Source of the DNA: a virus
Strand: one strand, 5' to 3'
Virus record (IMG/VR): IMGVR_UViG_3300004095_000016
Span: 1 to 22,486 of that record
DNA length: 22,486 bases
Shown here: one piece after another, positions 634-22,351 of the stretch
How positions within the stretch are numbered: position 1 is the first letter of the stretch
Layout: every line of letters starts with the position of its first letter
Notes under the pieces: generated by a model
Told to the model about the DNA's origin: nothing
What the model saw: only the letters and a program-made list of their open reading frames with translations
Databases searched by the model: none
Program-made: the position numbers and the translations under genes

Positions 634-1068
634 ATGAACCCTCTTCACCTAGCACTAATTACGGTCGGGTTGCTTGCGTTTTATCTGCTTGAGCAAAAAC
701 TCATGCAGATAAAAAGTAATCAGCCCACCTTAACCCTCGTCGTTGCAAACAACGGCAATCTCAAAGTCTCAAAAGGAAAATCTATGACCGCTACTACAAG
801 TATTGACCACACCGTTTTGGTTTCTTTGGCTATCGCTGATGCTAAAGGTAACCCAACAGCAGCACCCGCTGTTCCCGTGTGGACATTGGACAACCCAACT
901 GTTGCAACCGTAGTTGCTGCTGCGGACGGCATGACCGCAGTGGTAACTCCCACAACTGTGGGTGTTGTTAATCTGACCGTTACGGTCGGCTCATTGACTG
1001 CTTCTGTTGCCATTACGTTCACCGCTGGCGCACCTGCAACAATCACTATTACCACAACTATTCAGTAA
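634..1068 (+). CDS. Ig-like domain protein with N-terminal membrane anchor
   Basis: The protein has 144 residues. Residues about 3-20 form a hydrophobic helix (LHLALITVGLLAFYLL) fitting a signal anchor. Residues about 50-140 read as one bacterial Ig-like (Big_2-type) fold: a V-P-V-W-T-L-D-N-P strand, an A-D-G-M-T turn, then alternating Thr/Val strands. Small phage Ig-like proteins usually decorate capsids or tails and bind surfaces weakly; a membrane anchor on one is unusual. The first ATG has no clear SD, whereas ATG 784 (residue 51) has AAGGA six bases upstream and would give a 94-residue soluble Ig domain. Both products may be made. A strong terminator follows 22 bases after the stop. Confidence 0.7.
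   Translation: MNPLHLALITVGLLAFYLLEQKLMQIKSNQPTLTLVVANNGNLKVSKGKSMTATTSIDHTVLVSLAIADAKGNPTAAPAVPVWTLDNPTVATVVAAADGMTAVVTPTTVGVVNLTVTVGSLTASVAITFTAGAPATITITTTIQ
773..786 (+). promoter_or_regulatory. Internal SD and second start within the Ig-like gene
   Basis: AAGGA (773-777), a 6-base spacer, then ATG 784-786 in the frame of the Ig-like gene. This is a better initiation site than the upstream ATG 634, and it separates the Ig domain from the membrane anchor. Confidence 0.5.
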
Positions 1069-6194: not shown

Positions 6195-7211
6195 ATGGAT
6201 CAACCGGATATTGTAAAATTTCTAGCAACGTTTGGTTTTGAGGGTTTGTCTTTGATTGACAACAAAGATCATATCACAACCTACAAGTACACTTCTCTTA
6301 ATCCTAAACTTCTAAAAAAATTAGGAGAAAGCACTGTAACGTCCAACGGCAAAACCGCAGTCTACAATTTACCTGGCGTAGCAAGCATTGGCTATTTGCC
6401 TTCTAAGAATCTGGTGCGTTTTGTTTACAAAGGCAAAGCGCGGGCGGCTGTTAAAAATCAAACAGTGGACCACGAAGTTATCGTAACTCCTGAGCTGCAT
6501 AAGATGTTTATGCAGGTTCAGGTTAACCCGGGAAAAGCTGTAGCATTCTGCAAAAAGCTTTGGCACTATTTTAACGAACACAAATTCAATTCGGTTATGC
6601 AGGAGCCTACCCTGCTTGTCTCGCCTACGCCACCGCATAAGACTAATCTAAAGAACGCTCGTGGTATCTACTTCTCTAGGTGTGAAGGGGAACCTGGTAC
6701 TTTGTGGATGAACACCAAGGTGTTTAATGCTACTGAGCAAGTTTTCTTGACTATCTTTTTGCATGAAATGTGCCACCAGGCCTGCAATCAGATTTCTCGT
6801 CTCTCGAGGGCTGAAAACTCGATTGAAAAGGGTCATGGCCCTGTCTGGAAACAATGGATGGTTAAAGTAGGACTGAACCCCAGCCGTTACGACCATACAG
6901 ATGAGATAGAATACGGAACGGCAATGGACCGCGCAAAGCGTGAGGCTTCTGAGGCAGCCAGAATTGGGCCGCGCATTACACCTGAGTCTTTTAAAGGTAA
7001 ACGTAAAGTAACTGAACCTGAAGATAGGGACCGTGTTATTTTTGAACACGAGGGGCGTGTAGCCTCCGGCGTTATTGAAAAATTAGGTAAGGCTATAAAG
7101 ATGATGGACCCTACTTTTAGGCATCCCTTATTTAAGACAGTCTACCTTGAAAATGCAGGTCCTGTCTACTACGCAGACGACTACGTTATGCCTACATGGA
7201 AGGATAAATAA
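6195..7211 (+). CDS. SprT-like zinc metallopeptidase
   Basis: The protein has 338 residues. H190-E191-x2-H194 (LHEMCHQ) is the zinc and catalytic motif, and H214 in KGHGPVWKQWM supplies the third ligand in the context typical of SprT/Spartan-like proteins (a G-H-G-x-x-W helix). Spartan proteases digest proteins crosslinked to DNA; bacterial SprT roles are unclear. The 185 residues before the motif include beta-type sequence not recognised, and the tail after residue 225 is Lys/Arg/Glu-rich, perhaps nucleic-acid binding. It is translationally coupled: the SD CGGAG lies in the end of the Nudix gene, and its stop overlaps the next ATG by one base (TAATG). The protease call is strong; the substrate is unknown. 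Confidence 0.85.
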   Translation: MDQPDIVKFLATFGFEGLSLIDNKDHITTYKYTSLNPKLLKKLGESTVTSNGKTAVYNLPGVASIGYLPSKNLVRFVYKGKARAAVKNQTVDHEVIVTPELHKMFMQVQVNPGKAVAFCKKLWHYFNEHKFNSVMQEPTLLVSPTPPHKTNLKNARGIYFSRCEGEPGTLWMNTKVFNATEQVFLTIFLHEMCHQACNQISRLSRAENSIEKGHGPVWKQWMVKVGLNPSRYDHTDEIEYGTAMDRAKREASEAARIGPRITPESFKGKRKVTEPEDRDRVIFEHEGRVASGVIEKLGKAIKMMDPTFRHPLFKTVYLENAGPVYYADDYVMPTWKDK

Positions 7212-8665
7212 TGAACACTTCAGTCTTTACTAAAGGCGCAGCAGACCTAAATAATCAGATTAGTCTGCTCTTGGGCGTTGGTGAGACAATAACCAATGTT
7301 CAAATATCTACAGCTACTCCTGTAGACGCAAACACGCCCATAATATCTCTGTTGTCGATCGTAGCCAACGTAATATCTTTTCAGGTAACTGGCGGTACTG
7401 CCGGCGTTACTTACGGATTCGTTGCTACAGTAAAAACTACGCAGCAGACTCTAACATGGACTATTGCAGTTCAAGTTACTAGCGATAGTTTTGCGCCCGT
7501 AAACAACGAAGATCCAGATTCATATCAAAATTTAGTGGGTCAATTGCAGGCTGGTGACTCTGCCTTGGCAACAACGCAGTTTCAGTTTGCGGCATCTTTT
7601 GATCCTACTGGCGGCTACGTTAATTGGGATGTGTTGGACTCCCAAGGTATTGTCTGGGCTTCAGGTAACGCCTACGACTATAAAGTTTTAATGACTGGTA
7701 CAGTAAATATTGTTATTGCTAAATCAGTTGTAAGTGTACCTAGCTCAATTCCACCTAGCCTAGACAATCCCTATCAGTTGCGATATACTCTTAGGCAAGG
7801 CAACAATGTCTGTTATTCCTACGAAAATATAAGGGTACTTGGTTACCCTAATATGCCTTTGGGCGCACAAGATGCGATGGAATACGCCGGAGACATGGCT
7901 GCAATTAGCTGTGTGACTGAAACTGCCTTTGCTAACTGTGCCGTGTCTGTTTTACAAAACGGCACTCTTTTAAGTTATCAACCTTTAGGTAGTCCTAAGC
8001 GCGTTGCTAACGGGTATTTTATAGGCGCGGCTATTGACACGACAAACTTGCCAGTGTCTTTAACGCCTTATCAGGTACTCTGGAGTTTTTCTAACAACAC
8101 AGTGCAAACCTATCGTGAATCTTCCTCTTTGTGGGTCGTAAACGATTCGATAATTTCGGCTGCGGAAGACGTAAAGAGTAAGATTAACAAGGCACGCACA
8201 ACTTTGTTCGGCACGCCAGACTCTCAGTATTCCAGTATTGAGGTAATGAAATGGCTACGTCGAGGCGCAGATGCTTTCAACGGAGCTTATGGTCAGTTTA
8301 CTTCTTTGACAATGACTAACGCTCAGGGACCTGTTCGTGAGTTTTGGCTCTTGTACGCAGAAAAGTATGCACTTGAGGCACAATACCTCCTTGAAGGTGA
8401 AAAGGCCTTTAATTTCTCGGGCGCAGCGATAACCCTGGATGTAGACAAGACGCAATACCTAGATAACATGATTGGCAAAATTCAGTCTACGCTAGACGCC
8501 GAAGTTAAAGCTTTGAAGGTTAACTTGATTATTCGTGGCAACGGCAGCGGAGACGGTTCTCTAGATATAACAAACACAACGGGTAATAACGTTGGTGGTG
8601 TAGCTATTGCAATAACGCCTGCTTCCATCTACAACAGTGGCGTTATCTTTACTGGTCTCTTGTAA
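7211..8665 (+). CDS. Virion-type protein with N-terminal Ig-like domain
   Basis: The protein has 484 residues. Residues about 20-95 have the alternating pattern of a phage Ig/fibronectin-like domain (QVTGGTAGVTYGFVATV, then TLTWTIAVQV). The middle is beta-rich. Residues about 315-435 are helical, with EGEKAFNFSGAAITLDVDKT, a segment I associate with phage structural or connector proteins; the tail is Asn/Gly-rich with beta strands. It is probably a virion component (connector, neck or fibre-linked), judged from composition and neighbours, not from a catalytic motif. SD AAGGA is 6 bases before the ATG, which overlaps the SprT-like stop by one base. Confidence 0.65.
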   Translation: MNTSVFTKGAADLNNQISLLLGVGETITNVQISTATPVDANTPIISLLSIVANVISFQVTGGTAGVTYGFVATVKTTQQTLTWTIAVQVTSDSFAPVNNEDPDSYQNLVGQLQAGDSALATTQFQFAASFDPTGGYVNWDVLDSQGIVWASGNAYDYKVLMTGTVNIVIAKSVVSVPSSIPPSLDNPYQLRYTLRQGNNVCYSYENIRVLGYPNMPLGAQDAMEYAGDMAAISCVTETAFANCAVSVLQNGTLLSYQPLGSPKRVANGYFIGAAIDTTNLPVSLTPYQVLWSFSNNTVQTYRESSSLWVVNDSIISAAEDVKSKINKARTTLFGTPDSQYSSIEVMKWLRRGADAFNGAYGQFTSLTMTNAQGPVREFWLLYAEKYALEAQYLLEGEKAFNFSGAAITLDVDKTQYLDNMIGKIQSTLDAEVKALKVNLIIRGNGSGDGSLDITNTTGNNVGGVAIAITPASIYNSGVIFTGLL

Positions 8666-8693: not shown

Positions 8694-9029
8694 ATGGAAA
8701 ATACAACCGCACAACCTGCAGCAGTAAAAACCTCATTGGGTAAAAACCTCATGGGGTTTTTCTCGTCATTTTTTAATACTCTGTTTAATCAACTAGAAGT
8801 TTTTTGGACCTGGGTAGACAAACACAATATCGAGCAACATGCAGTGTCTACTGCAACCTTGGTTGGTTTAGTCTACGTAATGAAGTGGGCTTTTGCCTAT
8901 GCTGATACTCATAACGATGGTAACACGGCCTTGATTATTGCGGCGGTTACCGCACCTTACTCGGTTCTGCAAGGTGCGGTCTTGAAATTCTACTTCCATG
9001 ACCGGTCTGCTATGGGTACTACGCCGTGA
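8694..9029 (+). CDS. Small membrane protein, holin-like
   Basis: The protein has 111 residues. The start is ATG 8694 with GAAGGA six bases upstream; an in-frame ATG at 8637 lies inside the previous gene and lacks an SD. Two hydrophobic segments, about residues 52-69 (TATLVGLVYVMKWAFAYA) and 78-99 (NTALIIAAVTAPYSVLQGAV), are joined by a short Asp/Asn loop, with an amphipathic Phe/Trp-rich stretch before them. Size and topology fit class II-type holins that permeabilise the inner membrane at lysis, but many phages also carry small membrane proteins of other function, and no endolysin is adjacent. The end overlaps the HNH gene by 4 bases. Confidence 0.6.
   Translation: MENTTAQPAAVKTSLGKNLMGFFSSFFNTLFNQLEVFWTWVDKHNIEQHAVSTATLVGLVYVMKWAFAYADTHNDGNTALIIAAVTAPYSVLQGAVLKFYFHDRSAMGTTP
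8724..8761 (+). repeat. 13-bp direct repeat with hairpin near the start of the holin-like gene
   Basis: GTAAAAACCTCAT occurs at 8724-8736 and 8740-8752, a 16-base period that shifts the reading frame, so the same DNA is read once as VKTSL and once as GKNLM. AAAAACC of the second copy (8742-8748) pairs with GGTTTTT (8755-8761), giving a hairpin ending in T; the first copy could compete for the same arm. It may attenuate transcription or translation, or be chance. Confidence 0.6.
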
Positions 9030-9316
9030 TATTTACTCGACCTTTTGTTCGTAAGTCTGCTACAGGTTCAGCGAAAATTGTACGAGACTCATATTCAAAC
9101 GGTAAAACGTCTTGGTGGGACTTGCGTAAAAAAGTCTTTGACCGCGATGGTGGCAAATGTCAGGGAATGAAAGGTTGGAACAAATGCGGTGCTAAGGCTG
9201 TAGACGTACATCATATTGTACCGCTAAGCCGAGGTGGTACCTCAACAATGAGTAACTTAATGTCGGTGTGCAAAGAGTGTCATGACGCTAGGCACAATCA
9301 TATGAAAAGGAAATAG
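9026..9316 (+). CDS. HNH endonuclease
   Basis: The protein has 96 residues. H62-H63 (DVHHIVPLSRGG), N77 (SNL) and H86 form the HNH beta-beta-alpha metal site; C45, C54, C82 and C85 form the structural zinc site. HNH enzymes nick or cut DNA. Small free-standing phage HNHs may be homing enzymes or may help terminase in packaging; this one is embedded by a 4-base GTGA overlap in an operon of late genes, which favours an integrated role over a recent homing insertion, though homing cannot be excluded. The start is GTG 9026, with only a weak GGG upstream, so translation probably depends on coupling to the holin-like gene. Confidence 0.9.
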   Translation: MIFTRPFVRKSATGSAKIVRDSYSNGKTSWWDLRKKVFDRDGGKCQGMKGWNKCGAKAVDVHHIVPLSRGGTSTMSNLMSVCKECHDARHNHMKRK

Positions 9317-9724: not shown

Positions 9725-10378
9725 ATGAACAACTACCCAAACCCTTTAGACTTTCCTAAGAGCTTAAACCCTTTTGCTGCGGACGCTTGGTTTCAAGCCT
9801 GCCTTAGTACAGGCGCGGCTAAATTGACGTCTAAAGAAGCTTGGGTAATTGTCTTAGAAAAGTTTATAAATCTTTGTCAGGCTCAAGGCTTAGACCCGTT
9901 TTTTAAAGGTGACGCTAACAGTGCTATTAGGCAGTACCTTTTTAAACGACGTTCTCAGTTTGTTCTCTTTTTAGACAGAACTAAGTTTCTTCGAGGTTTG
10001 AAGCCGATATTAAATGTCAAACATGAGGTAACCATTACCGACTACGGATTTGAGATACGCGTCTCAGGTCAATACAGAGTACAGGATGCTTCTTGGTTCA
10101 AGCAGGTGTTTAGGTTTCCTATACCTTATAGGTTTAGTCGTCTCCGTAAAAATGATAAGACATTCTACAGCGTTTCCTGGGAGCCTGGACTTGAAGTGTT
10201 TATTGCCAACGACCAAATAAACTCTCTCAATCAGTGGCACATAGGTTACATTCTACGTTGCCCAATTCATCCGGACGCTGAAGGTCAAAATTTAAAGGAT
10301 TTTATCTTTAACAGTCTTTGGAAACCTATAGCCAGCTCTAAAAGGCCTTATAAGGTTCCAGTAATAAGGTCAATATAG
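9725..10378 (+). CDS. Hypothetical protein (217 aa), aromatic-rich
   Basis: No family is recognised. The protein is basic and rich in Phe, Tyr and Trp, with N-terminal helices (residues about 15-75), then strands around residues 95-160, and a C-terminal mix. No catalytic motif stands out. The ATG has no SD in the 15 bases upstream, where the previous gene ends, so it probably depends on translational coupling across the 2-base gap. The next gene begins one base after its stop. Tight packing supports it as a real gene, and a virion or assembly role is only a guess from neighbours. Confidence 0.72.
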   Translation: MNNYPNPLDFPKSLNPFAADAWFQACLSTGAAKLTSKEAWVIVLEKFINLCQAQGLDPFFKGDANSAIRQYLFKRRSQFVLFLDRTKFLRGLKPILNVKHEVTITDYGFEIRVSGQYRVQDASWFKQVFRFPIPYRFSRLRKNDKTFYSVSWEPGLEVFIANDQINSLNQWHIGYILRCPIHPDAEGQNLKDFIFNSLWKPIASSKRPYKVPVIRSI

Positions 10379-10379
10379 A

Positions 10380-10748
10380 ATGACAAAAGTTGCCGCTAGA
10401 ATACCTGAGGTTACGCCTAAATATTATCTGTTTAACTTTGAATTTGAGAGTACGCCTAGATACTCAGGAACAATTCTGGGAGTATCGGTTGCGCAGGCTG
10501 TTGCAAGAGCCCGAGGAGCCTATAGTAAAAACGTTCTTAAAAACCAGCCAGGGACACCTAAATTTAGCTTAGGCGTAAACCAGGCTAAGGAATTAAGGTT
10601 AACTCTGAGCCTATCAATTTTAACCATACAGAAGTACAAAGAGCTATATAGAGTAGCCTACCAAAGCAAGTACCAGCTAGAGCCTCAAGATTTAAAAGAA
10701 TTTTCCCAACTTACCAAAATAACCGAGGATATTAAAAAATGGAATTAA
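10380..10748 (+). CDS. Hypothetical protein (122 aa), basic
   Basis: No family is recognised. It starts with a strand-rich section (YYLFNFEFES) followed by an Ala/Arg helix (VAQAVARARGAYSKNVL), then basic helical sequence to the end; pI looks high. No zinc, nucleotide or membrane motif is seen. The ATG comes one base after the previous stop, with only a distant AAGG upstream. Its last 10 bases overlap the start of the giant helicase gene, whose SD (GAGGA) lies within it, so the two are likely co-translated and may be partners. Confidence 0.7.
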   Translation: MTKVAARIPEVTPKYYLFNFEFESTPRYSGTILGVSVAQAVARARGAYSKNVLKNQPGTPKFSLGVNQAKELRLTLSLSILTIQKYKELYRVAYQSKYQLEPQDLKEFSQLTKITEDIKKWN

Positions 10749-13700
10749 AAGCTTTTCAGATAGCTCGACCTAAGACGAACCTCGTCCAAGATCAGGCTTA
10801 CTCTGTTTCCGACGCAACTCTAAAAACAGGTTTTCTTGGAGTATTTCGTAAGGTCTATACCGGCGATGCCCGAAAGGTTCTTTTGAAACTTGCATTGGGT
10901 GCCTTTATGGACACTCGCGTTATTAGCCTTGCTAAACCTCCTCGCGCAGTGTCTCAAGAAGAGCGCAAGGCAAAGAAGGCAATGTCTAAGGCACTCAGTG
11001 ACTGGGAAAATAATCGCCAAGAAATGGCTTTGGCTCAGTACACTACTCTGGTAAAATTCAATACCGAAGCTCCGTATTTTAAGCTTGAGCTTCCTATCCT
11101 TGCCATGAATAGTGTTGACAACCTGTTTAACACTCTCCAGTTGTTTACGGACGTGCCTCCGGCAGAAGAGACTCTTGAAGAGATTCGCGTAGCTTTGGCT
11201 TCTGGTGGTAAGCGTTATCCGGTTACAAAATTGTTCTTAAACTCCGGCCTCGATAACGGTACCAAGTCCATATTTTCGACTACTCTAGAAGCCGCAGTAA
11301 TCAAGGCAGGTACGCCTTCTGTTCTTTATTTGGAGTTTAAGATTCCAAAAGAAGTTGTAGAGTTTTTGACCTCTACAGACTGGCTGCAGGTACGTGCTGT
11401 TGATTTGTACCCTTTGGTTAGTGCCTGGGTGGAAGCAGAATACGTCTCTAAATACTACGGCAAGTCTGCCATTTCGATGTCTCGCATTTCTGAGACGCTC
11501 CCCAAACACGATCCCTTGGATGAGCGAGTTGACCAGTACTCTATTGCCATTAACATGGACGGAGACCCACTCTACATTCCTAGCGTTTGCGATAACACGA
11601 CTATCTATGAGTCTACTTACGCAAGTGCAAGCGTGGGAGAAAACGGTGAATTTGCTTTGCGCACTCCTAAGTCTAACATGCGCCCTCGGTTACCGTCTAA
11701 TCTGCCCATCTTGGTAGACTGGATTAACAACAAATTTTCTTATTCGGATACAAGCGGTAAGATTCAGATTATGCCCATGGAGCATTTCCGCAAATGCACT
11801 CCTACCATGGCAATGAATCTGCTTAATCGTAATGTTAATCCCGCTTTCCTCAAAGGTCTTGTTAACTTTGCGGCGCAATGCAGCGTACCTACAAACGTAT
11901 CGCGCTATCTGGGTGCCCTTACAGCAGAAGAAACCGCTGAGGCTAACGCCAAAGGTTACCTAAGCAACGTAACTATTGATCAGTATTTTGAGAAGGTATG
12001 GGAAGCTACTGTTAAAGAACAGCCCAACTTTGTCTTGCGCTATGCAGACTTTACTGCCGAGACAGATCAGCCTGGCTTTTTGCCAGTGGTAGAATTTATC
12101 TATGCCTTGCATGAGGGCATGACTAAAAACTTGGAAGCACTTTACGCCAAGTATGCGGTTGTTACTATAACCAGCCAGCTGGGTATCATTTCCCTCCTTG
12201 CTTGCTACGGTAGCAAGATTAGCCAAGTACGTGCTGAGGCAAATGAGGCAAACAAAGGCGCACTTAATCAGGGTGTAATTCCTGATTGGACTCCTCCGGA
12301 CGCTCCGCTGCTTACAGATAAATTCAGCAAACCTGACGCAGGGCTACAACCGCATCAAGTTAAAATCCGTTGTCTGCTGCGCGAGTCTCCTGACCTAGCC
12401 GTTTTGGATGTTGCTGCTGGCGGTGGTAAGAGCTTGCTTGCTATTACAGACGTTTTGTACGAGATTAAGGCTAACCGTTCGGCTCCTTATCTGATTATGT
12501 GCCCTGGTCACCTAGTGGCTAACTACGTTTCAGAACTGGTAGAGTTTACTGACGGTCAAGTTAACGTGATTCCAATTACGTCCTATAACTTTAGGACTTC
12601 TGGTATTGCTCGTTATGAGCAGATTCTAAAGGCTGCTCCCATCAATACTGTTATGATTGTTGATTACGACGCGTTGAAATTCCGCGCTCGTTCGGCTGGC
12701 TATGGAACGTCTTCTATCCTAGTATTCCCTGTAACTGAGTTGATTCGTCAGTTCCGTCCTGGGTATGTGTTCTTGGATGAGTCGCACTTTCTCAAGAACG
12801 CTAAGTCTGCTCGTGCTAAGGCAGTAATGAGCCTTATCGCCGACATTCCTAAAAAGCGTATTGCTTCAGGTACTCTTAATCCGGATTCGCCTTCTGACCT
12901 CCCTGGTCAAATGGCTATTCTTGACCCAACAATCTTTGGTACACGTAACGACTTCAATCAGACCTACGGTGAGAACGTCAGCGGTGATCGTGTTATGCAG
13001 TGGCGCACTAGTGGTGAGAACTCGATTGCTCACATTCTGCCTAAGTTAAAGGGTTCTGTTGTATGGGCTTCTGCTAAACGTCGTGAGTGGGCTTACGCTC
13101 TCCCTAAACGTGAAGACCGATTTATTTCGGTTGAGTTGACTGCAAATCAAAAGGTAATGTACGACGCTATCTTTGATGACATGATTCAGCAGATTAAGAA
13201 GTTAGCTGAAACAGACAAAGGTGCGCGTAAACTTCTGGAAAAACTTAACGGCAAGAAAGCTTCCGCTGAAGATGAGGAAAACTTTGGCGATATGGACGAA
13301 GCTGACGAAGATGCAAATACTGAAGACATTCTTGACGATAACGGCGACGTAGGCCCTGCTTTGCAACCCTACCTTGCAGACATTGAGCGCTTTGTTACTG
13401 ATCCAGCATCGCATCCTTACTCTGTTAACGGTTTTAAAACAGAAGAAGGTAAGTTTATTCCACCTTTGTCTGGTGACGACCTGAAATCTCCTAAAGCTAT
13501 GCAGTTGGCCCGCTTGCTGACTGACTGGTTTGAAAACAATACTTCTAAGGCAATTGTTTTCGTTAACTACAATGCATCTGCTGCGTCTCTGTTCGCTTCA
13601 ATGCCTCCTGAGTTGCAAAAATGCGGTTTGCTCTATTCTGCCTCACAAAAGACAGAACACGTTAATCGTTTCAAGAAAGATCCAAACATCAAATGGATGA

Positions 13701-15508
13701 TTGGTATTCGTAAGTCGCTTGAAGTTGGCTTAAACTTGCAGATTGCTGGTTACTTGGCTCGTGTTGAAGGTGTGTGGACCCCTGGTGAACAAGAGCAAGG
13801 TGATTGCCGTATTGCACGTCCTTACTTTGGTAAGGGTGGTGACCAACGTCAACGTCTGCGATTCGACACATTGGTTGCTAACCGCACTATTGACGTTACT
13901 AAAGCAGCACGTTTGCGGGCAAAGATTGTTGCTTTGGCTAAGTTTGATAACTCTACAGACCCAGCCTATCAGTCAATTGAAGATATCCCAATCATTCCAA
14001 TGAACCTGGAAGCTATTCAGACTAAGAATGACTTTGATACCAACCTGGCTCAGTACCAGCGTTCGATGCAACAACTGAATTCTGTTGTTACTTCTGACTA
14101 CGAAGAATACAAGGCCAAACAGCAGGCTGAGGGTGGGGTGAAATTTACGCCTATTAAGGTGGCCCCTGTCCCAACTGGTGCAGCTATTTTGTCTGCGGTA
14201 CCTTACGCACAAGGTACAGAGCTTTACGCAGCTTCTGAACTAGGTTTAGTCCGTGTTGACAACTACCTTGGCCTTGAGTTGTCTACTGATGACGAAGATG
14301 ATGATTCTGGTCCAGGTGGAGATGACGAAGACGAAACCGGTGCAAAGAATCCTGAGATTCGCCGTCAAAAAGAACTGTTGGCTGGTAAACGTGTTCATAC
14401 AGAATACGGTGATGGATTTATCCTGTCGGCTGGTCGTGTTAAAGGCGAATCTGTTACTGCTTTGCGTGTATCCTTAGACGACGGCACTGTGGTTTCTCGT
14501 TTGCGTGTTACTAATGCTTTTATTATTACGCGCACTGAGACTAACTCCAACGACATGAAGATTAAACTCGCAGAGGCCGCTGGCTTGCCTGTTACCGGCG
14601 AAATTACAGCGCCTGCAGTTTACTCTAAGCCTGCTAAGTTGACACTAAAACAGCAACGCGAAATTGCCAAAGAACAGGAACGTCAACGTCTGTTAGAAAA
14701 ACAGAAGGCTCGTAAGAAGGAAGGCAAGCTTTCTATTGGTCTGGACTTGACTATCGTTAACGGCTACGTTCGTCTTGGATACATTGAAAGTTCTGACAAA
14801 CGCGCGGTTAAGGCTTTGGAGGCTTTGGGCTTTAAGTTAGAACCTAAGATGGTTCACACTCGTATTCGTAATCATAAGCAACTGATTACTCAATTCCGTC
14901 TGTGGGCTGACGCAGGCTTTAACGTTTCTACCGAAGTTGATTCGGATGCGTTCATTACGTTGGCTCAAGAGTTGGATAGCAATGCTTTGCAAACACACAA
15001 ACACTATGCAAAACTTATGGGCAAGGCTGCCTATATGAATTACATGCGTTTGGGTTGGAAGCCAACGTCGAATCCTAAGTTGCTGCAAATGTTTGCGTTG
15101 GTTACGGACGGTGGTGATCGCGATGCTGCGGCTCTGAGGGAAGCAGCTAAGGCTGGTGTTGCACCGCGTTATGGTGTAGCTTATTTGGCAATGCCGTACG
15201 GTGCAGGTCATCCTGCAACAGCAAAGGCTATGAGCTCTCGTTATAAGGCTCCGTCCACTAACTGGGTAATTAGCAATCCTTCACTTAGTATCTATGCAGC
15301 CAACATTGGGGGCATTCATAAGATTCTGGGACAATTGAAGGACGCTGGAATTAGCGTTAACAACATTGACCAACTTAATGTTCAAGCTAAGTCCATTCGT
15401 AAGTTGTCTAACATCATGGAACTTAAAAACGATGCAACCGTAGATATTGGACCTGCGCAAGATCCTAAAGCGGTGGCAGAGGAAAAGGTTACCAAGAAGA
15501 CACGCTAA
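10739..15508 (+). CDS. Giant SNF2-type (superfamily 2) DNA helicase/translocase
   Basis: The protein has 1,589 residues. The motor spans about residues 535-1070: motif I AAGGGKS with K564, motif II D680-E-S-H683, a GT pair in ASGTLNP (motif III region), and in lobe 2 VFVNYN, EVGLNLQ (motif V) and Q1020-GDCRIAR-P (motif VI). It would move on double-stranded DNA using ATP. An acidic insert (about 841-868) separates the lobes; a second acidic run lies near 1181-1200; residues about 1216-1268 (GKRVHTEYGDG) resemble the small Tudor-like domain at the end of UvrD/PcrA helicases. A basic coiled coil follows (about 1300-1330). The first 530 and last 260 residues are unrecognised. No methyltransferase motif was found, unlike the DarB antirestriction proteins of P1. 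It is the last gene of its unit. Confidence 0.85.
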   Translation: MELKAFQIARPKTNLVQDQAYSVSDATLKTGFLGVFRKVYTGDARKVLLKLALGAFMDTRVISLAKPPRAVSQEERKAKKAMSKALSDWENNRQEMALAQYTTLVKFNTEAPYFKLELPILAMNSVDNLFNTLQLFTDVPPAEETLEEIRVALASGGKRYPVTKLFLNSGLDNGTKSIFSTTLEAAVIKAGTPSVLYLEFKIPKEVVEFLTSTDWLQVRAVDLYPLVSAWVEAEYVSKYYGKSAISMSRISETLPKHDPLDERVDQYSIAINMDGDPLYIPSVCDNTTIYESTYASASVGENGEFALRTPKSNMRPRLPSNLPILVDWINNKFSYSDTSGKIQIMPMEHFRKCTPTMAMNLLNRNVNPAFLKGLVNFAAQCSVPTNVSRYLGALTAEETAEANAKGYLSNVTIDQYFEKVWEATVKEQPNFVLRYADFTAETDQPGFLPVVEFIYALHEGMTKNLEALYAKYAVVTITSQLGIISLLACYGSKISQVRAEANEANKGALNQGVIPDWTPPDAPLLTDKFSKPDAGLQPHQVKIRCLLRESPDLAVLDVAAGGGKSLLAITDVLYEIKANRSAPYLIMCPGHLVANYVSELVEFTDGQVNVIPITSYNFRTSGIARYEQILKAAPINTVMIVDYDALKFRARSAGYGTSSILVFPVTELIRQFRPGYVFLDESHFLKNAKSARAKAVMSLIADIPKKRIASGTLNPDSPSDLPGQMAILDPTIFGTRNDFNQTYGENVSGDRVMQWRTSGENSIAHILPKLKGSVVWASAKRREWAYALPKREDRFISVELTANQKVMYDAIFDDMIQQIKKLAETDKGARKLLEKLNGKKASAEDEENFGDMDEADEDANTEDILDDNGDVGPALQPYLADIERFVTDPASHPYSVNGFKTEEGKFIPPLSGDDLKSPKAMQLARLLTDWFENNTSKAIVFVNYNASAASLFASMPPELQKCGLLYSASQKTEHVNRFKKDPNIKWMIGIRKSLEVGLNLQIAGYLARVEGVWTPGEQEQGDCRIARPYFGKGGDQRQRLRFDTLVANRTIDVTKAARLRAKIVALAKFDNSTDPAYQSIEDIPIIPMNLEAIQTKNDFDTNLAQYQRSMQQLNSVVTSDYEEYKAKQQAEGGVKFTPIKVAPVPTGAAILSAVPYAQGTELYAASELGLVRVDNYLGLELSTDDEDDDSGPGGDDEDETGAKNPEIRRQKELLAGKRVHTEYGDGFILSAGRVKGESVTALRVSLDDGTVVSRLRVTNAFIITRTETNSNDMKIKLAEAAGLPVTGEITAPAVYSKPAKLTLKQQREIAKEQERQRLLEKQKARKKEGKLSIGLDLTIVNGYVRLGYIESSDKRAVKALEALGFKLEPKMVHTRIRNHKQLITQFRLWADAGFNVSTEVDSDAFITLAQELDSNALQTHKHYAKLMGKAAYMNYMRLGWKPTSNPKLLQMFALVTDGGDRDAAALREAAKAGVAPRYGVAYLAMPYGAGHPATAKAMSSRYKAPSTNWVISNPSLSIYAANIGGIHKILGQLKDAGISVNNIDQLNVQAKSIRKLSNIMELKNDATVDIGPAQDPKAVAEEKVTKKTR

Positions 15509-15524: not shown

Positions 15525-15558
15525 TTGATAGGGAGAATAAACTCCCTATCAATCTTTT
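15525..15558 (+). terminator. Strong rho-independent terminator
   Basis: TTGATAGGGAG (15525-15535) pairs perfectly with CTCCCTATCAA (15542-15552) around AATAAA, followed by TCTTTT. It closes the 13-gene unit after the helicase. Confidence 0.92.
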
Positions 15559-15970: not shown

Positions 15971-16357
15971 ATGGCTGCCATAATTAGAAACAATGCCATT
16001 TCGGGCATTAACGGAAATAACCGAAGTGGTGGGTACGTAACTCGAAAAGTCCCCTTTGGTTACGTTACCGTACAAGGAGGCGCTGGCGATGTTGCTCGCA
16101 TACCTATTGACGCTTTGGTAACCGGTAAGGTAAGAGTTAACACTATCTCGGTACAAAAATTGGGCACTGGTCCTGTAAACGTACAAACGACGCTAGTGCC
16201 TATTGAGTTCGCCCTAGATCCAAACAATGACTCAACTAGTCATTGGCAAACCGCAGTTACTGTTTCTACCGGTGTACTAACAAACATCTCATATCCAACG
16301 ACTGCTCTGCTAATAACGTTTACAGGAGCAGCTACTTTATTTATTGGAGCGGCATAA
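15971..16357 (+). CDS. Small beta-rich protein, probably virion
   Basis: The protein has 128 residues. Composition is Thr/Val/Gly/Ala-rich with alternating hydrophobic residues throughout (GYVTVQGG, LLITFTGAATLFIGAA), suggesting a compact beta structure and no membrane span. Such proteins near prohead protease genes are often head decoration or fibre-linked proteins, but none is recognised here. GGAG lies eight to nine bases upstream, inside the end of the previous gene, and its stop overlaps the protease start by one base, so the three are likely translated together. Confidence 0.65.
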   Translation: MAAIIRNNAISGINGNNRSGGYVTRKVPFGYVTVQGGAGDVARIPIDALVTGKVRVNTISVQKLGTGPVNVQTTLVPIEFALDPNNDSTSHWQTAVTVSTGVLTNISYPTTALLITFTGAATLFIGAA

Positions 16358-17106
16358 TGCAAAAGTTTCCAAAAGCTTACTATGAAAACAAAAAACCAAT
16401 TGTTGCAGACATAAGCTACCCGGAAATGCCTATTAAAAAGGAAGAAGCTATGAACGCAGCCGATCCTATTGCCGCGGTAGATTTCTCATGGCTTCCTTTT
16501 GCAGCAAAAACTTACCACATTAGTCCGCGCATTGAAGACTATATTCTAAAGATTTTGCCTATCTGTCCTTCGGATATGCCCAACCGAAACGGCATTGCCT
16601 TTCCTTTGCAAGAGCTTATTAAGTTCCAGCCACCACCGGTAAATCGTCAGGTGTACAAAGCCTGGGCGGGCTGTCCGGTGCATTTGGAACACGATAACCG
16701 AGATTGTACAAAAGCTCTGGGCGTAGTATTTGATACAATGCTTACTCCTATTAAAGGTTTTGGCGAAGATCGACACTGGAAGGTAATGGGTCTTGTTGGT
16801 ATCGACAAGACCAAAAATCCTGAAGTAGCCAATAGAGTTCTTACTGGCGAACTTAACACCGGCTCTATGGGAACAGAAGCAGACTACTTTACATGCTCTG
16901 TGTGCGGTAAAGAGGCTACAGATAATCAGTTTAAAAACTGCGGCCACATTACGACAATTAAGGATGTAAATTGGCGGCTAATTAACGAAGGCGGAGAAGA
17001 AAAGCTTGCGTATCTAAACGCACACGGCTTGTCTCCAATTGAAATGAGCCTTGTTGCTGATCCTGCCTGGGTAGTCTGTTTGTCCGACACACACTTTAAC
17101 TGGTAG
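16357..17106 (+). CDS. Prohead (capsid maturation) protease
   Basis: The protein has 249 residues. H109 and H112 in CPVHLEHDN, followed by LGVVFD, and S170 in NTGSMG fit the His/Ser pair of herpesvirus-assemblin/T4 gp21-type prohead proteases; S-P-I-E-M-S-x-V-A-D-P-A near the C-terminus is the usual closing motif. These enzymes sit in the prohead core, digest scaffold and trim capsid proteins, then themselves. A zinc knuckle (C180, C183, C195, H197) directly follows the serine, an insertion seen in some large-phage relatives as I recall. The true start is ATG 16357, with GGAG upstream and overlapping the previous stop; the longer frame to 16243 lies inside the previous gene. Scaffold and major capsid genes lie downstream in the expected order. 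Confidence 0.82.
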   Translation: MQKFPKAYYENKKPIVADISYPEMPIKKEEAMNAADPIAAVDFSWLPFAAKTYHISPRIEDYILKILPICPSDMPNRNGIAFPLQELIKFQPPPVNRQVYKAWAGCPVHLEHDNRDCTKALGVVFDTMLTPIKGFGEDRHWKVMGLVGIDKTKNPEVANRVLTGELNTGSMGTEADYFTCSVCGKEATDNQFKNCGHITTIKDVNWRLINEGGEEKLAYLNAHGLSPIEMSLVADPAWVVCLSDTHFNW

Positions 17107-17125: not shown

Positions 17126-17521
17126 ATGACTCCTCAAAATCAAGAATTTGAGCACGGTTTAGGAAGGCAAAAAGGCGATTGTCAACGAGCAGTCATAGCA
17201 TCTCTTTTAGATTTACCTATTAGTCAAGTACCGCATTTTGCCGCGATAGCTTCCGATGCTATAAACTTCTGGGAGTTAGTTTATGATTTTGTTGCCTACC
17301 ATGGCTATGATTTTCTACCGGGTGTAAAGATAGAAGAATACATTATTCCGGGCGAAGACTTGTACCATCAGATAAGCGGTGAGTCTCCAAGAAACAAAAG
17401 AGTAAAACACGCGGTGGTAGGATTAAACGGTAACGTCTTTTTTGATCCGCATCCTAGTAGGGCTGGGCTTGCCGGTAAACCGGAACATTGGTCGCACTCT
17501 GTTATTAGAAAAATTATTTAA
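17126..17521 (+). CDS. Small phage cysteine-peptidase-like protein
   Basis: The protein has 131 residues. C19 in KGDCQRAVIASLL, H95 in KHAVVG and D107 in FFDPHPSRAGL are spaced as in papain- or C39-like folds (Cys on the first helix, His and Asp on two strands), and ISGESPRN precedes the His. I recall this overall pattern in many small phage proteins annotated as hypothetical; catalysis has not been inferred from anything beyond the three residues. It could be a peptidase, a deamidase or an inactive fold. A weak AGG is eight bases before the ATG. The stop overlaps the following C1 peptidase start by one base, so the two are probably coupled. Confidence 0.6.
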   Translation: MTPQNQEFEHGLGRQKGDCQRAVIASLLDLPISQVPHFAAIASDAINFWELVYDFVAYHGYDFLPGVKIEEYIIPGEDLYHQISGESPRNKRVKHAVVGLNGNVFFDPHPSRAGLAGKPEHWSHSVIRKII

Positions 17522-18321
17522 TGGAAACAAACATGAAACATGCGTCTGTTGTTGGTAAAAAGTACACTTGGCAAAAGCAGAAACCAGATGCACGAGATCA
17601 TCTGGTGCACGAGTCAAAAGCCTTTAAACTTGTAGAGCCTTCTGAAATTCCTAATATCGTAGACCTCCGCAGTCATTGCTCTCCTGTGTTTGACCAAGGT
17701 GAACTTGGAAGCTGCACTGCCAATGCTCTTTGCGGTGCTTTAGAATATCTAGAAAACAAAGACCGTGACTTGGAGATTAACGGCTTTGCTTCACTTAGCC
17801 GCCTATTTCTTTATTTTAACGAACGGGCTATTGAGGGAACGGTTACCGAAGATGGCGGTGCGGCACTTCGCGATGGTATTAAAGTACTAGCCAATGTCGG
17901 TGTTTGCGACGAGGCAACATGGCCTTACGTAATTCAGGCTTTTGCGGTCCGTCCACCGCAACCAGCCTACGATCAGAGCGCTAACCGAAAAATCTCTGCT
18001 TACGCTGCGGTTCCACAGGATATTCAAAGCATTAAACACACTTTGGCTTCTGGGTATCCCATTGTTTTTGGTTTCCAAGTCTTTGAGAATTTTGAAAGCC
18101 CTCAAGTTGCAATGTCAGGTGTTGCTTCTATGCCTCAGCTAGGTGAGCCGTGTCACGGTGGTCATGCTGTGTTAATGGTAGGCTACAACAATACAAGTCA
18201 GTACGTTTTAGTTCGTAACTCCTGGGGACCTAATTGGGCACAGCAAGGCTACTTCTGGTTACCCTATGCTTACGTCACCAATCCAAGTTTAGCGTGTGAC
18301 TTTTGGGTGGTTACCAAGTAA
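17521..18321 (+). CDS. Papain-family (C1) cysteine peptidase
   Basis: The protein has 266 residues. All four papain residues are seen: Q59 and C65 in DQGELGSCTANAL, H215 in GGHAVLMVGY, and N233 in VRNSWGPNWAQQGYFWLPY. The core is full length, with a short 40-residue N-terminal part and no signal peptide, so it would act in the cytoplasm or inside the virion. The substrate is unknown: a second processing protease for virion proteins, a protease ejected into the host, or a cell-wall-linked role are all possible. ATG 17521 has no SD and depends on coupling; ATG 17533 (MKHASVV) is an alternative that removes four residues. It follows prohead protease and a smaller Cys-peptidase-like gene. Confidence 0.9.
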   Translation: METNMKHASVVGKKYTWQKQKPDARDHLVHESKAFKLVEPSEIPNIVDLRSHCSPVFDQGELGSCTANALCGALEYLENKDRDLEINGFASLSRLFLYFNERAIEGTVTEDGGAALRDGIKVLANVGVCDEATWPYVIQAFAVRPPQPAYDQSANRKISAYAAVPQDIQSIKHTLASGYPIVFGFQVFENFESPQVAMSGVASMPQLGEPCHGGHAVLMVGYNNTSQYVLVRNSWGPNWAQQGYFWLPYAYVTNPSLACDFWVVTK

Positions 18322-18903: not shown

Positions 18904-18937
18904 GGGACGTGATTGTAAAAAATCACGTCCCTTTTTT
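18904..18937 (+). terminator. Strong rho-independent terminator
   Basis: GGGACGTGATT (18904-18914) pairs perfectly with AATCACGTCCC (18921-18931) around GTAAAA, followed by six T (18932-18937). It separates the protease unit from the scaffold/capsid unit. Confidence 0.95.
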
Positions 18938-19078: not shown

Positions 19079-20506
19079 ATGACTGAAAAAGTACGAGTCA
19101 AGGCTGCCCCGACTCATTTCCCTAATACGGAAAAGATGAAGGCGACTGATTCGGGATTTGGTACTACGAATCACCAAGAAGATCTAATGCTGATTGACCC
19201 CGATGAACACAAAGGCGGCTCAACTCATACTCGTGAAGATCATAAAGGTATTCCTAAAGCACCTATTCGTGCATCTGCAAAGGCTGCCCTTCTGACAGAC
19301 AAGCAGTTGCCACGCGGTGGTAGTGTTAATTCCGATACCCCAGATCCATCTATTGGCTATCTGGAAAAACAAGTTAAGATGCCAGTTATCAACACCAACG
19401 TTTCTGCGGATGTTGAAGACGAGGCTGATGAAGATAATATGGAAGACGAATTCAATATTCACTCCATTGAATCTGATTTTGAAGACTTGGGCGAAGAGAG
19501 CGAAGAAGAAAACGACGAATTCCTTGAAGACCACCAAAAAGAAATCAAGGGTGAGTTGGAGGATGACGAAGAACTGGAAGACGGCGAAGAACTGGGCATT
19601 CCGGAAGACCACGCTGCTGAAGAAATGCTTGAAACCGAAGAGCCAGAAGAAGTTGAGTCTGCTGCTGAAGAGAAATTTGAAGCTGAAGGCGAAGACGACA
19701 CAATGGCTGTGGTTGATGCTGACGAAGTTAAAGAGCACGACGAACACGATTTGCAGTTTGCAACCATTGCTTCTGCCGTTCACGTTATTCGTTCCAATCG
19801 TATCATTGCTTCTATTGGCCGTTCTTCTGCTAACAAAGCAGGCATCGGCGACATCTATCTGACACCTCAGTATCAAGATGTTGTGGCCGCTAACGTGGAC
19901 GCAAAAGGTCTGCGTAAGGGTCTTATCCAATCCGGTTTCATCCTGTCTAAGGTTAAGTTGACAGCTTCTAAAGCTGCTTCTAAGATCGTTGCTTCCAAAG
20001 TAGAAAAGCAACTTGCTTCTACTCTTGCTTCTATCGACCGTAAGTCTAAGGCTTTGGAACAAAGCTTGGCTATTGCCGCAGTTGGTATTAACCGCAAGTT
20101 TTTCAAGGGCGCAGAGAACACTCTGAAGGCTGGCTTGGAAAACGAACTTGTTAAGGCGGGCGTTCGTGGTGGTGCTAATCTGGTTCGTGCTATGTTTGCC
20201 GAACACGGTGTTAGCTACGCTAAAGCTATTTTGACATTGGCTAACAAGATTTCTGAAATGCCAGAAGAAGTTCGTAACCAGTACGCGTCTGCATTGGACC
20301 TTACTAGCGACGAAGACTATGAAGGCGAAGACGACTTGGAAGCTAACGTAGATGACGAAGAAATGGAAGACATGGAAGATTTGCCTACTACAGTAAGTGC
20401 AGCTCTTTATACTCCATTGCGTCGTGATCGTGGTGCTCTTCTTTCTGCTGGTGTGAAATCGTCTTCTGCTATGGCGATTTTGGCTGGTAATCAATCCCTG
20501 GTTTAA
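19079..20506 (+). CDS. Capsid scaffold / prohead core protein
   Basis: The protein has 475 residues. It is highly acidic: residues about 112-225 are mostly Glu and Asp, and a second acidic run lies at about 410-437. The section between (residues about 226-405) is helical, Ala/Lys/Leu-rich. Position between prohead protease and major capsid genes, strong charge and low complexity are what scaffolds show: they fill the prohead, template the shell and are then digested by the protease. The ordered middle section, including INRKFFKGAENTLKAGLENEL, may bind the capsid or portal. The strong SD AAAGGAG fits high expression. The role comes from position and composition, not a catalytic motif. Confidence 0.75.
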   Translation: MTEKVRVKAAPTHFPNTEKMKATDSGFGTTNHQEDLMLIDPDEHKGGSTHTREDHKGIPKAPIRASAKAALLTDKQLPRGGSVNSDTPDPSIGYLEKQVKMPVINTNVSADVEDEADEDNMEDEFNIHSIESDFEDLGEESEEENDEFLEDHQKEIKGELEDDEELEDGEELGIPEDHAAEEMLETEEPEEVESAAEEKFEAEGEDDTMAVVDADEVKEHDEHDLQFATIASAVHVIRSNRIIASIGRSSANKAGIGDIYLTPQYQDVVAANVDAKGLRKGLIQSGFILSKVKLTASKAASKIVASKVEKQLASTLASIDRKSKALEQSLAIAAVGINRKFFKGAENTLKAGLENELVKAGVRGGANLVRAMFAEHGVSYAKAILTLANKISEMPEEVRNQYASALDLTSDEDYEGEDDLEANVDDEEMEDMEDLPTTVSAALYTPLRRDRGALLSAGVKSSSAMAILAGNQSLV

Positions 20507-21295: not shown

Positions 21296-22351
21296 ATGCG
21301 TAATCAAGTTAGTCTTCGTGCTTCTAAAGCACCAATTTTGGCCACAGAACTGAAGTTTGCTAATTCCAACGAGCGTGCTGTTGGTGCTAATGGCGAACTG
21401 AATGCTTCGTCTAAACGTGATTTGCTGACTCAGCAATCCAAGTTCTTGCAAGCTGCTGCCTCTGGCAACATGCTGACCATTGACGCTGCTACCAGCCGCG
21501 AATTGGTTATGGCTGCTTTCAATGACAAAGAAGCTCACCGCGTTCTGGGCGAAAAGATTTCTGATGCTCTTTATCAGACCGCTAATCGTCAAGGTTTCAT
21601 GCGTAAGTATCTGGCTAAGATTGACGTGCAGCAAGGTTCTATTCCTCGCTTCCCAGTTCGCACCAAGAACGTTACCGCTGTTTGGAGCACCAGCCCCACT
21701 AAGGTGGAAAGCCAAATCACTCGTGACAAATGGTTTACCCCAACTGAAATGACTGTTATTGCACGTCCTTTCATTCCCCAAGTTGAATTGAACCAATCTT
21801 CTGGTGACGTTCTCCAAGAGAAATTCATCGAAGGCGTGGAAGCTACGATGGTTGCAGAAGATCGTTTGTACTATAACCAATTGCAAACTTTGGTTGGTGT
21901 GGACAATCCTTTGACCATTATCTCTGGCCAGTTGACTCCTTACTTGCTGTCTACTGTTGTTACGCAAGTAACTCAGTGGGGCATGAAGGCTGCTAACTTG
22001 CTGTTGGCTGCTGACTTGTGGCAAGACATTACTGGTAATAGCGATTTCTTTAACGCTATCGATCCAGTTGCTCGTCATGAATTGTTGTTGACTGGTGAAC
22101 TGGGCGTAATGTACGGCATGACCGTTACTTCCGACGCTTATCGTCATCCAGAGCACAAGGTTCTCGGCAAGGGTGAGTTCTACGTTATTGCTGACGCTCT
22201 TAACCATGGTGCTTACTCTGACCGTGGTGGTCTGCAGTCTACTCCTACTGACATCTCTATGGAAAAGATGCCAGGTCGCGGTTTTGCAATTCACGAATCT
22301 TTGGCAGTGTCGGTTGCTAACAGCCGTTCATTTGCTAAGGGCATTCGTTAA
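21296..22351 (+). CDS. Major capsid protein
   Basis: The protein has 351 residues. Length, uniform composition, position after protease, scaffold and decoration-type genes, a strong SD (AGGAG, eight bases from ATG) and a biased codon set all fit the major capsid protein of a tailed phage, expected to have the HK97 fold. Residues about 1-60 could be a scaffold-like delta region removed by the protease. Motif-like segments are ARPFIPQVELNQSSGDVLQ mid-protein, and VMYGMTVTSDAYRHPEHKV and DALNHGAYSDRGGL near the end, which resemble the closing strands of capsid proteins in large phages as I remember them. No enzyme motif is present. Confidence 0.8.
   Translation: MRNQVSLRASKAPILATELKFANSNERAVGANGELNASSKRDLLTQQSKFLQAAASGNMLTIDAATSRELVMAAFNDKEAHRVLGEKISDALYQTANRQGFMRKYLAKIDVQQGSIPRFPVRTKNVTAVWSTSPTKVESQITRDKWFTPTEMTVIARPFIPQVELNQSSGDVLQEKFIEGVEATMVAEDRLYYNQLQTLVGVDNPLTIISGQLTPYLLSTVVTQVTQWGMKAANLLLAADLWQDITGNSDFFNAIDPVARHELLLTGELGVMYGMTVTSDAYRHPEHKVLGKGEFYVIADALNHGAYSDRGGLQSTPTDISMEKMPGRGFAIHESLAVSVANSRSFAKGIR

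Follow-up and report, generated by a model that had tools for sequence, protein, structure and literature searches.

A large SNF2-type motor protein of the jumbo phages and its possible delivery with the viral genome

The motor gene and its surroundings

The window analysed here, a 22,486-nt stretch of viral DNA from IMG/VR, carries on its + strand (10739–15508) a gene for an SNF2-type motor protein of 1,589 aa and 175.7 kDa, which belongs to the jumbo-phage helicase family PHROG 21391/62. The frame was verified from the ATG at 10739 to the stop at 15508, and the 1,589-residue open reading frame of the original prediction is thus real. Nothing near-identical to this 22.5-kb fragment was found in the annotated phage collection. 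Every gene of the window with a family match lies on the + strand. Upstream of the motor gene are genes for type IB topoisomerase-like, NUDIX and SprT-like proteins, a head-tail connector protein (7211–8665, phrog_17327) and a small HNH endonuclease (9026–9316, family match), as well as a 217-aa protein (9725–10378) to which no function is assigned by match, but which has a homologue a short way ahead of the motor gene in 44 loci. The genes downstream encode a head maturation protease (16243–17106, phrog_18299), a papain-like protease and an HK97-fold major capsid protein (21296–22351, family match). The connector, head protease and capsid genes bear out the proposal that the motor is encoded among virion genes in the window. 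The motor gene begins inside the preceding ORF, the two sharing 10 bp, and a hairpin resembling an intrinsic terminator, with an 11-bp stem, is located directly 3' of its stop codon (15525–15552, +). This arrangement suggests that the motor gene may be the last gene of a connector/HNH operon.

The type IB topoisomerase-like protein (1149–2816, +; Pfam Topoisom_I, phrog_23460) represents a phage-specific enzyme also known in Motura, PaBG, Lu11 and RSL1. The gene of the SprT-like metalloprotease (6195–7211, +) lies 5' of the motor gene, and a counterpart is found near the motor gene in Motura too; elsewhere, DNA-protein crosslinks are the target of SprT-like proteases. A 144-aa protein encoded near the beginning of the window (634–1068, +) has a hydrophobic segment at its N-terminus and a sequence of Ig-like character, and gave no family match in PHROGs. 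Within the head gene block, the papain-type (C1A) cysteine protease (17521–18321, +) recurs in one fetched relative only, and a strong terminator-like hairpin (18904–18931, +), with an 11-bp stem and a T run, is located 5' of an acidic scaffold-like ORF (19079–20506). The TTG start listed for the head protease ORF (+) overlaps the ORF at 15971–16357 by 115 bp, and the protease probably starts further 3'.

Architecture of the motor protein

The motor consists of two lobes. Lobe 1 (residues ~535–840; 12341–13258, +) contains the Walker A motif GGGKS at 561–565, DESH at 680–683 and SGT at 710–712, and lobe 2 (residues ~917–1100; 13487–14038, +) contains motif V (GLN, 997–999) and motif VI with Q1020, R1024 and R1027. 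Motifs I, II, III, V and VI are present with SNF2-type spacing, and the residues on which a complete motor core had been postulated (K564, D680-E-S-H683, Q1020, R1027) were found at exactly the positions predicted. Seven of the residues (K564, D680, E681, T712, Q1020, R1024 and R1027) are invariant in 63 out of 63 aligned family members, which indicates that the motif set is not a product of chance and that the family has been under selection for an active motor. The protein matches Pfam SNF2-rel_dom (E 7e-17) and, by profile, SsoRad54 (E 3e-25). Its AF2 model adopts a two-lobe SNF2 fold, the best 50 Foldseek matches listed are SNF2-family proteins (E down to 4e-18), and the best PDB folds are those of CSB (in Pol II-bound structures), Mot1, ISWI/Snf2h and Rad54. 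Judged by profile and predicted fold, the window protein is an SNF2-type motor, as originally assigned, and ATP-dependent translocation on dsDNA is predicted from this homology. With SsoRad54, CSB, Mot1 and RapA it has the motor fold and motifs in common, whereas the accessory domains are not shared.

Structure prediction of the flanks gave a confident model with no counterpart in PDB on the N-terminal side and a small barrel on the C-terminal side. The N-terminal domain (residues 1–~524; 10739–12310, +) is family-specific and shared with the PaBG-type members, the domain of PaBG being homologous to that of the window protein (hhalign prob 98, E 4e-15). Residues 1–545 are modelled with a pLDDT of 90; the search of PDB folds with this model matched no solved structure, and the search of BFVD returned only five matches at E<=1e-3, the top one being the Motura family member. 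Sequence searches with the N- and C-terminal parts yielded no credible matches. The N-terminal domain is a candidate for capsid loading or for target binding.

The motor is accompanied by two acidic linkers predicted to be disordered (pLDDT <50), one inserted between the lobes (residues ~841–870; 13259–13348, +) and the other following them (residues ~1182–1198; 14282–14332, +). Both are acidic across the family, with a median D+E content of 40–48%, which substantiates the acidic inserts noticed previously. Similarly, the Tudor-like segment corresponds to a predicted small beta barrel of the Tudor/SH3-like type (residues ~1218–1263; 14390–14527, +) with the conserved motif VHTEFGDGxI. The barrel shows a sub-threshold likeness to the UvrD/PcrA tudor in Pfam (3 of 36 members, best E 0.017) and by hhalign (prob 48), the match to DNA helicase II chain 7egs_B is not significant (E 1.3), and the likeness to Mfd is weak and likewise below significance. 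The PcrA/UvrD identity suggested by these matches does not rise above noise, as cyanate lyase and ProQ_C score equally well or better and no match is significant. The RapA tudor gave no match to the barrel. RapA carries tandem tudor domains at its N-terminus, ahead of the motor, whereas the barrel of the window protein is C-terminal to the motor and does not match the N-terminal region of RapA; the architecture thus differs from that of a RapA-type RNA polymerase recycler. The barrel is followed by a region conserved in the family (residues 1280–1589; 14576–15505, +), in which sequence searches detected no recognised domain. The C-terminal part is hence unrecognised, as stated originally, but it exceeds the 260 residues then allotted to it, because the motor ends near residue 1100 and within 1100–1589 only the barrel resembles anything known.

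The jumbo-phage family and its gene neighbourhood

The window gene adds a new member to a family that databases list under the name of DNA helicase; it matches PHROG 21391 with an E of 2e-89 and also PHROG 62, and both bear that name. Tblastn located the family in 96 phage records, mostly of jumbo or near-jumbo phages, with the best matches in Motura (97% covered, 30% identity) and then in BcepSaruman/BcepSauron, and a viral scan, which had found no relatives with a single-sequence query, detected 80 IMG/VR loci with an alignment query; these counts take in some phages recorded more than once. The nearest named phages are ~30% identical to the window protein, and the nearest IMG/VR members, six in number, 45–55%. 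Named members of PHROG 21391/62 are the Motura helicase, the BcepSaruman SNF2-like protein, PaBG gp202, Lu11 gp100 and Dickeya JA11 gp164. Three of these phages, Motura, Lu11 and PaBG, were listed by Iyer and colleagues in 2021 under subgroup 2.2 (PMC7824862). The window protein shares with the family the motor, the N-terminal domain, the barrel and the C-terminal region, as well as the upstream HNH and connector neighbours, while PaBG-type members exceed it by ~400 aa, most of which lie at the N-terminus. A scan of bacterial genomes with one conserved pattern gave no relatives, and plasmid matches were generic SNF2 proteins only, so that neither a prophage nor a cellular source came to light.

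In some relatives the motor gene is interrupted by inteins, inserted at Walker A or close to further catalytic motifs. The carriers are an IMG/VR contig with two inteins, another contig and Yersinia phage fHe-Yen9-02 (motor genes L058:9992-16261, L079:6035-14293 and L011:8176-15552). Inteins in or beside catalytic motifs are typical of conserved essential enzymes.

Among the 86 loci with at least 4 kb of upstream sequence, an HNH homologue precedes the motor gene in 78 and a connector gene in 58. Of the 83 loci with enough downstream sequence, 44 have DNA polymerase I after the motor gene and 35 head protease/scaffold/capsid genes, never both; in the PaBG-type members the motor gene is followed by DNA polymerase I, not by head genes. 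The upstream HNH/connector block is therefore the constant companion of the motor gene, whereas the downstream head genes are clade-specific. The argument from the virion gene cluster holds for the neighbours in the window and for the upstream block, but on its own it is weaker than originally assumed, since DNA polymerase I is the downstream gene in more loci than the head genes and only the HNH/connector block is widely shared.

Virion evidence and the possible role of the family

A stronger argument than the position in the cluster comes from the particles of PaBG, precisely because what comes after the motor gene of this phage is DNA polymerase I and not a set of head genes. The PaBG study reports 14 Coomassie-visible proteins in CsCl-purified particles, and the largest protein detected, in band 1, is gp202 of 221,161.95 Da, named there 'RuvB helicase-like' (PMC7412058); its designation as SNF2 comes from the present analysis. 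The translated PaBG homologue of the motor protein has 1,969 aa and a mass of 221,159.27 Da. The offset of ~12 ppm between the two masses is equal to that of PaBG gp191, and counting genes from gp191 places the helicase gene at number 202. By mass and gene order we therefore identify gp202 as the homologue of the window protein. Over the motor, the two are ~25% identical, and as the N-terminal domains are homologous too, it is the family architecture and not the motor alone that occurs in the particle. The gp202 protein may have co-purified with the particles. The literature search found no virion proteome for the relatives Lu11, RSL1 and Y3, and the paper on the Dickeya phage contains no virion mass spectrometry. 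The virion-carried role put forward originally is thus supported through the family, and for the window protein itself presence in the particle is likely, given a Coomassie-visible homologue with the same N-terminal domain. Extrapolating from sequence relationship, we consider that the window protein probably enters the host together with the viral DNA.

We propose, with a probability of about 0.4, that the protein is a virion-carried, co-ejected dsDNA translocase of the SNF2 family, serving jumbo myophages by clearing or blocking proteins on the entering genome. The motor protein would be a late product that is loaded into the head and leaves it together with the DNA on ejection. Once inside the cell, it would track along the incoming double helix at the expense of ATP and push off or block DNA-bound host proteins, whether restriction complexes or other factors, allowing the unmodified genome to survive and become accessible. 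A dsDNA translocase delivered together with DNA would most simply be used to clear or block the proteins bound there. Its action might resemble that of the motor half of P1 DarB, or of strippers of the Mot1/CSB type, without making it a DarB.

P1 DarB, an antirestriction protein, is likewise a very large SNF2-containing protein of the particle (251 kDa, ~40 copies per virion, with an N-terminal capsid signal; PMC9024508), and the Dar proteins of P1 are co-ejected (PMC12810830). However, DarB has an N-terminal adenine methyltransferase, which the window protein lacks, and falls into PHROGs other than 21391/62. No detectable homology extends beyond the generic SNF2 core (BLASTP E 0.65, hhalign prob 8%), so that the comparison with DarB, made when the gene was first noticed, is valid as an analogy and no more. 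The accompanying remark that no methyltransferase motif is seen proved correct: Pfam revealed no hidden methyltransferase in the window protein or in the extended N-terminal portions of its relatives, and just 2 of the 63 family members contain NPPY-like tetrapeptides. Comparison with phage-defence helicases did not extend the assignment either, as the PADLOC matches to Zorya ZorD, DpdE and DrmD cover the shared SNF2 core and not the full profiles. A virion helicase of phiKZ offers a precedent (PMC13282480). The phiKZ protein gp203, a Superfamily-2 DEAD/DEAH motor annotated as a jumbo-phage structural protein, resembles the window protein in its core (hhalign prob 94), but has 703 aa as compared to 1,589, and the motor core alone aligns.

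The proposed delivery has to be set against a role in replication or recombination, in which the helicase, a substitute or partner of UvsW, would be made during infection and its presence in the particle would be incidental or due to DNA carry-over. The SNF2/Rad54-like fold is in line with such a function, as are the replication genes next to the motor gene in many relatives. Moreover, Iyer and colleagues suggested a recombination role for the Snf2 helicases of other jumbo-phage groups, proposing that those of group 1 and 3 myophages replace UvsW (PMC7824862). Nevertheless, PaBG possesses its own annotated UvsW-type helicase beside the SNF2 homologue, and further helicases are annotated near the motor gene in Lu11 and PhiXhv-15, which leaves no vacancy to fill there; the window phage is represented by 22.5 kb only. 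The Coomassie-visible virion band of PaBG and the location of the motor gene among head genes in the clade of the window protein also make this explanation unlikely. Still less probable is an injected, transcription-linked motor of the RapA/Mfd/CSB kind, whose barrel would dock on the host RNA polymerase while the motor recycles, removes or redirects the polymerase on the incoming genome. The similarity to the RapA motor, the Pol II-bound CSB structures among the best folds and the faint tudor character of the FGDG-type barrel would fit this function, but the barrel matches are all below significance and rivalled by those to cyanate lyase and ProQ_C, the RapA tudor is unmatched, Mfd is only weakly similar, and CSB ranks near all other SNF2 remodellers.

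Two further roles within the particle appear improbable. The dsDNA translocase fold and the virion location in PaBG would suit a DNA-uptake motor that translocates on the DNA leaving the tail and so draws the >200-kb genome into the cell, yet there is no sign of tail association, and the neighbours shared across the family are connector and HNH genes. The same neighbours, so frequent upstream of the motor gene, would agree with a joint role of the motor, the HNH nuclease and the connector in packaging or head maturation, after which the motor protein would stay in the head; HNH proteins encoded near packaging genes often assist terminases. SNF2 folds are not known to act as packaging motors. 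PaBG has a conventional large terminase of its own elsewhere, encoded by gene 108 (PMC7412058), an assignment taken from that paper, the check with Pfam PF03237 being insensitive (1/9).

Returning to the proposed virion-carried translocase, the family may, more tentatively, represent a widespread class of SNF2 motors that lack a methyltransferase and are delivered by the virion; jumbo phages would eject copies of a DNA-tracking ATPase, the family-specific N-terminal domain would serve capsid loading and the motor would strip the incoming genome of host defence proteins or of others. The present analysis is useful in that it links a family known as DNA helicase, and its unusual N-terminal domain, to a published virion band. 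This domain is a candidate capsid-loading tag. Ejection of the family would mean that dozens of jumbo phages supply the host with a pre-made motor resembling chromatin remodellers before any phage gene is expressed, and a genome of >200 kb would thereby be protected or opened in a general way that does not depend on modification.
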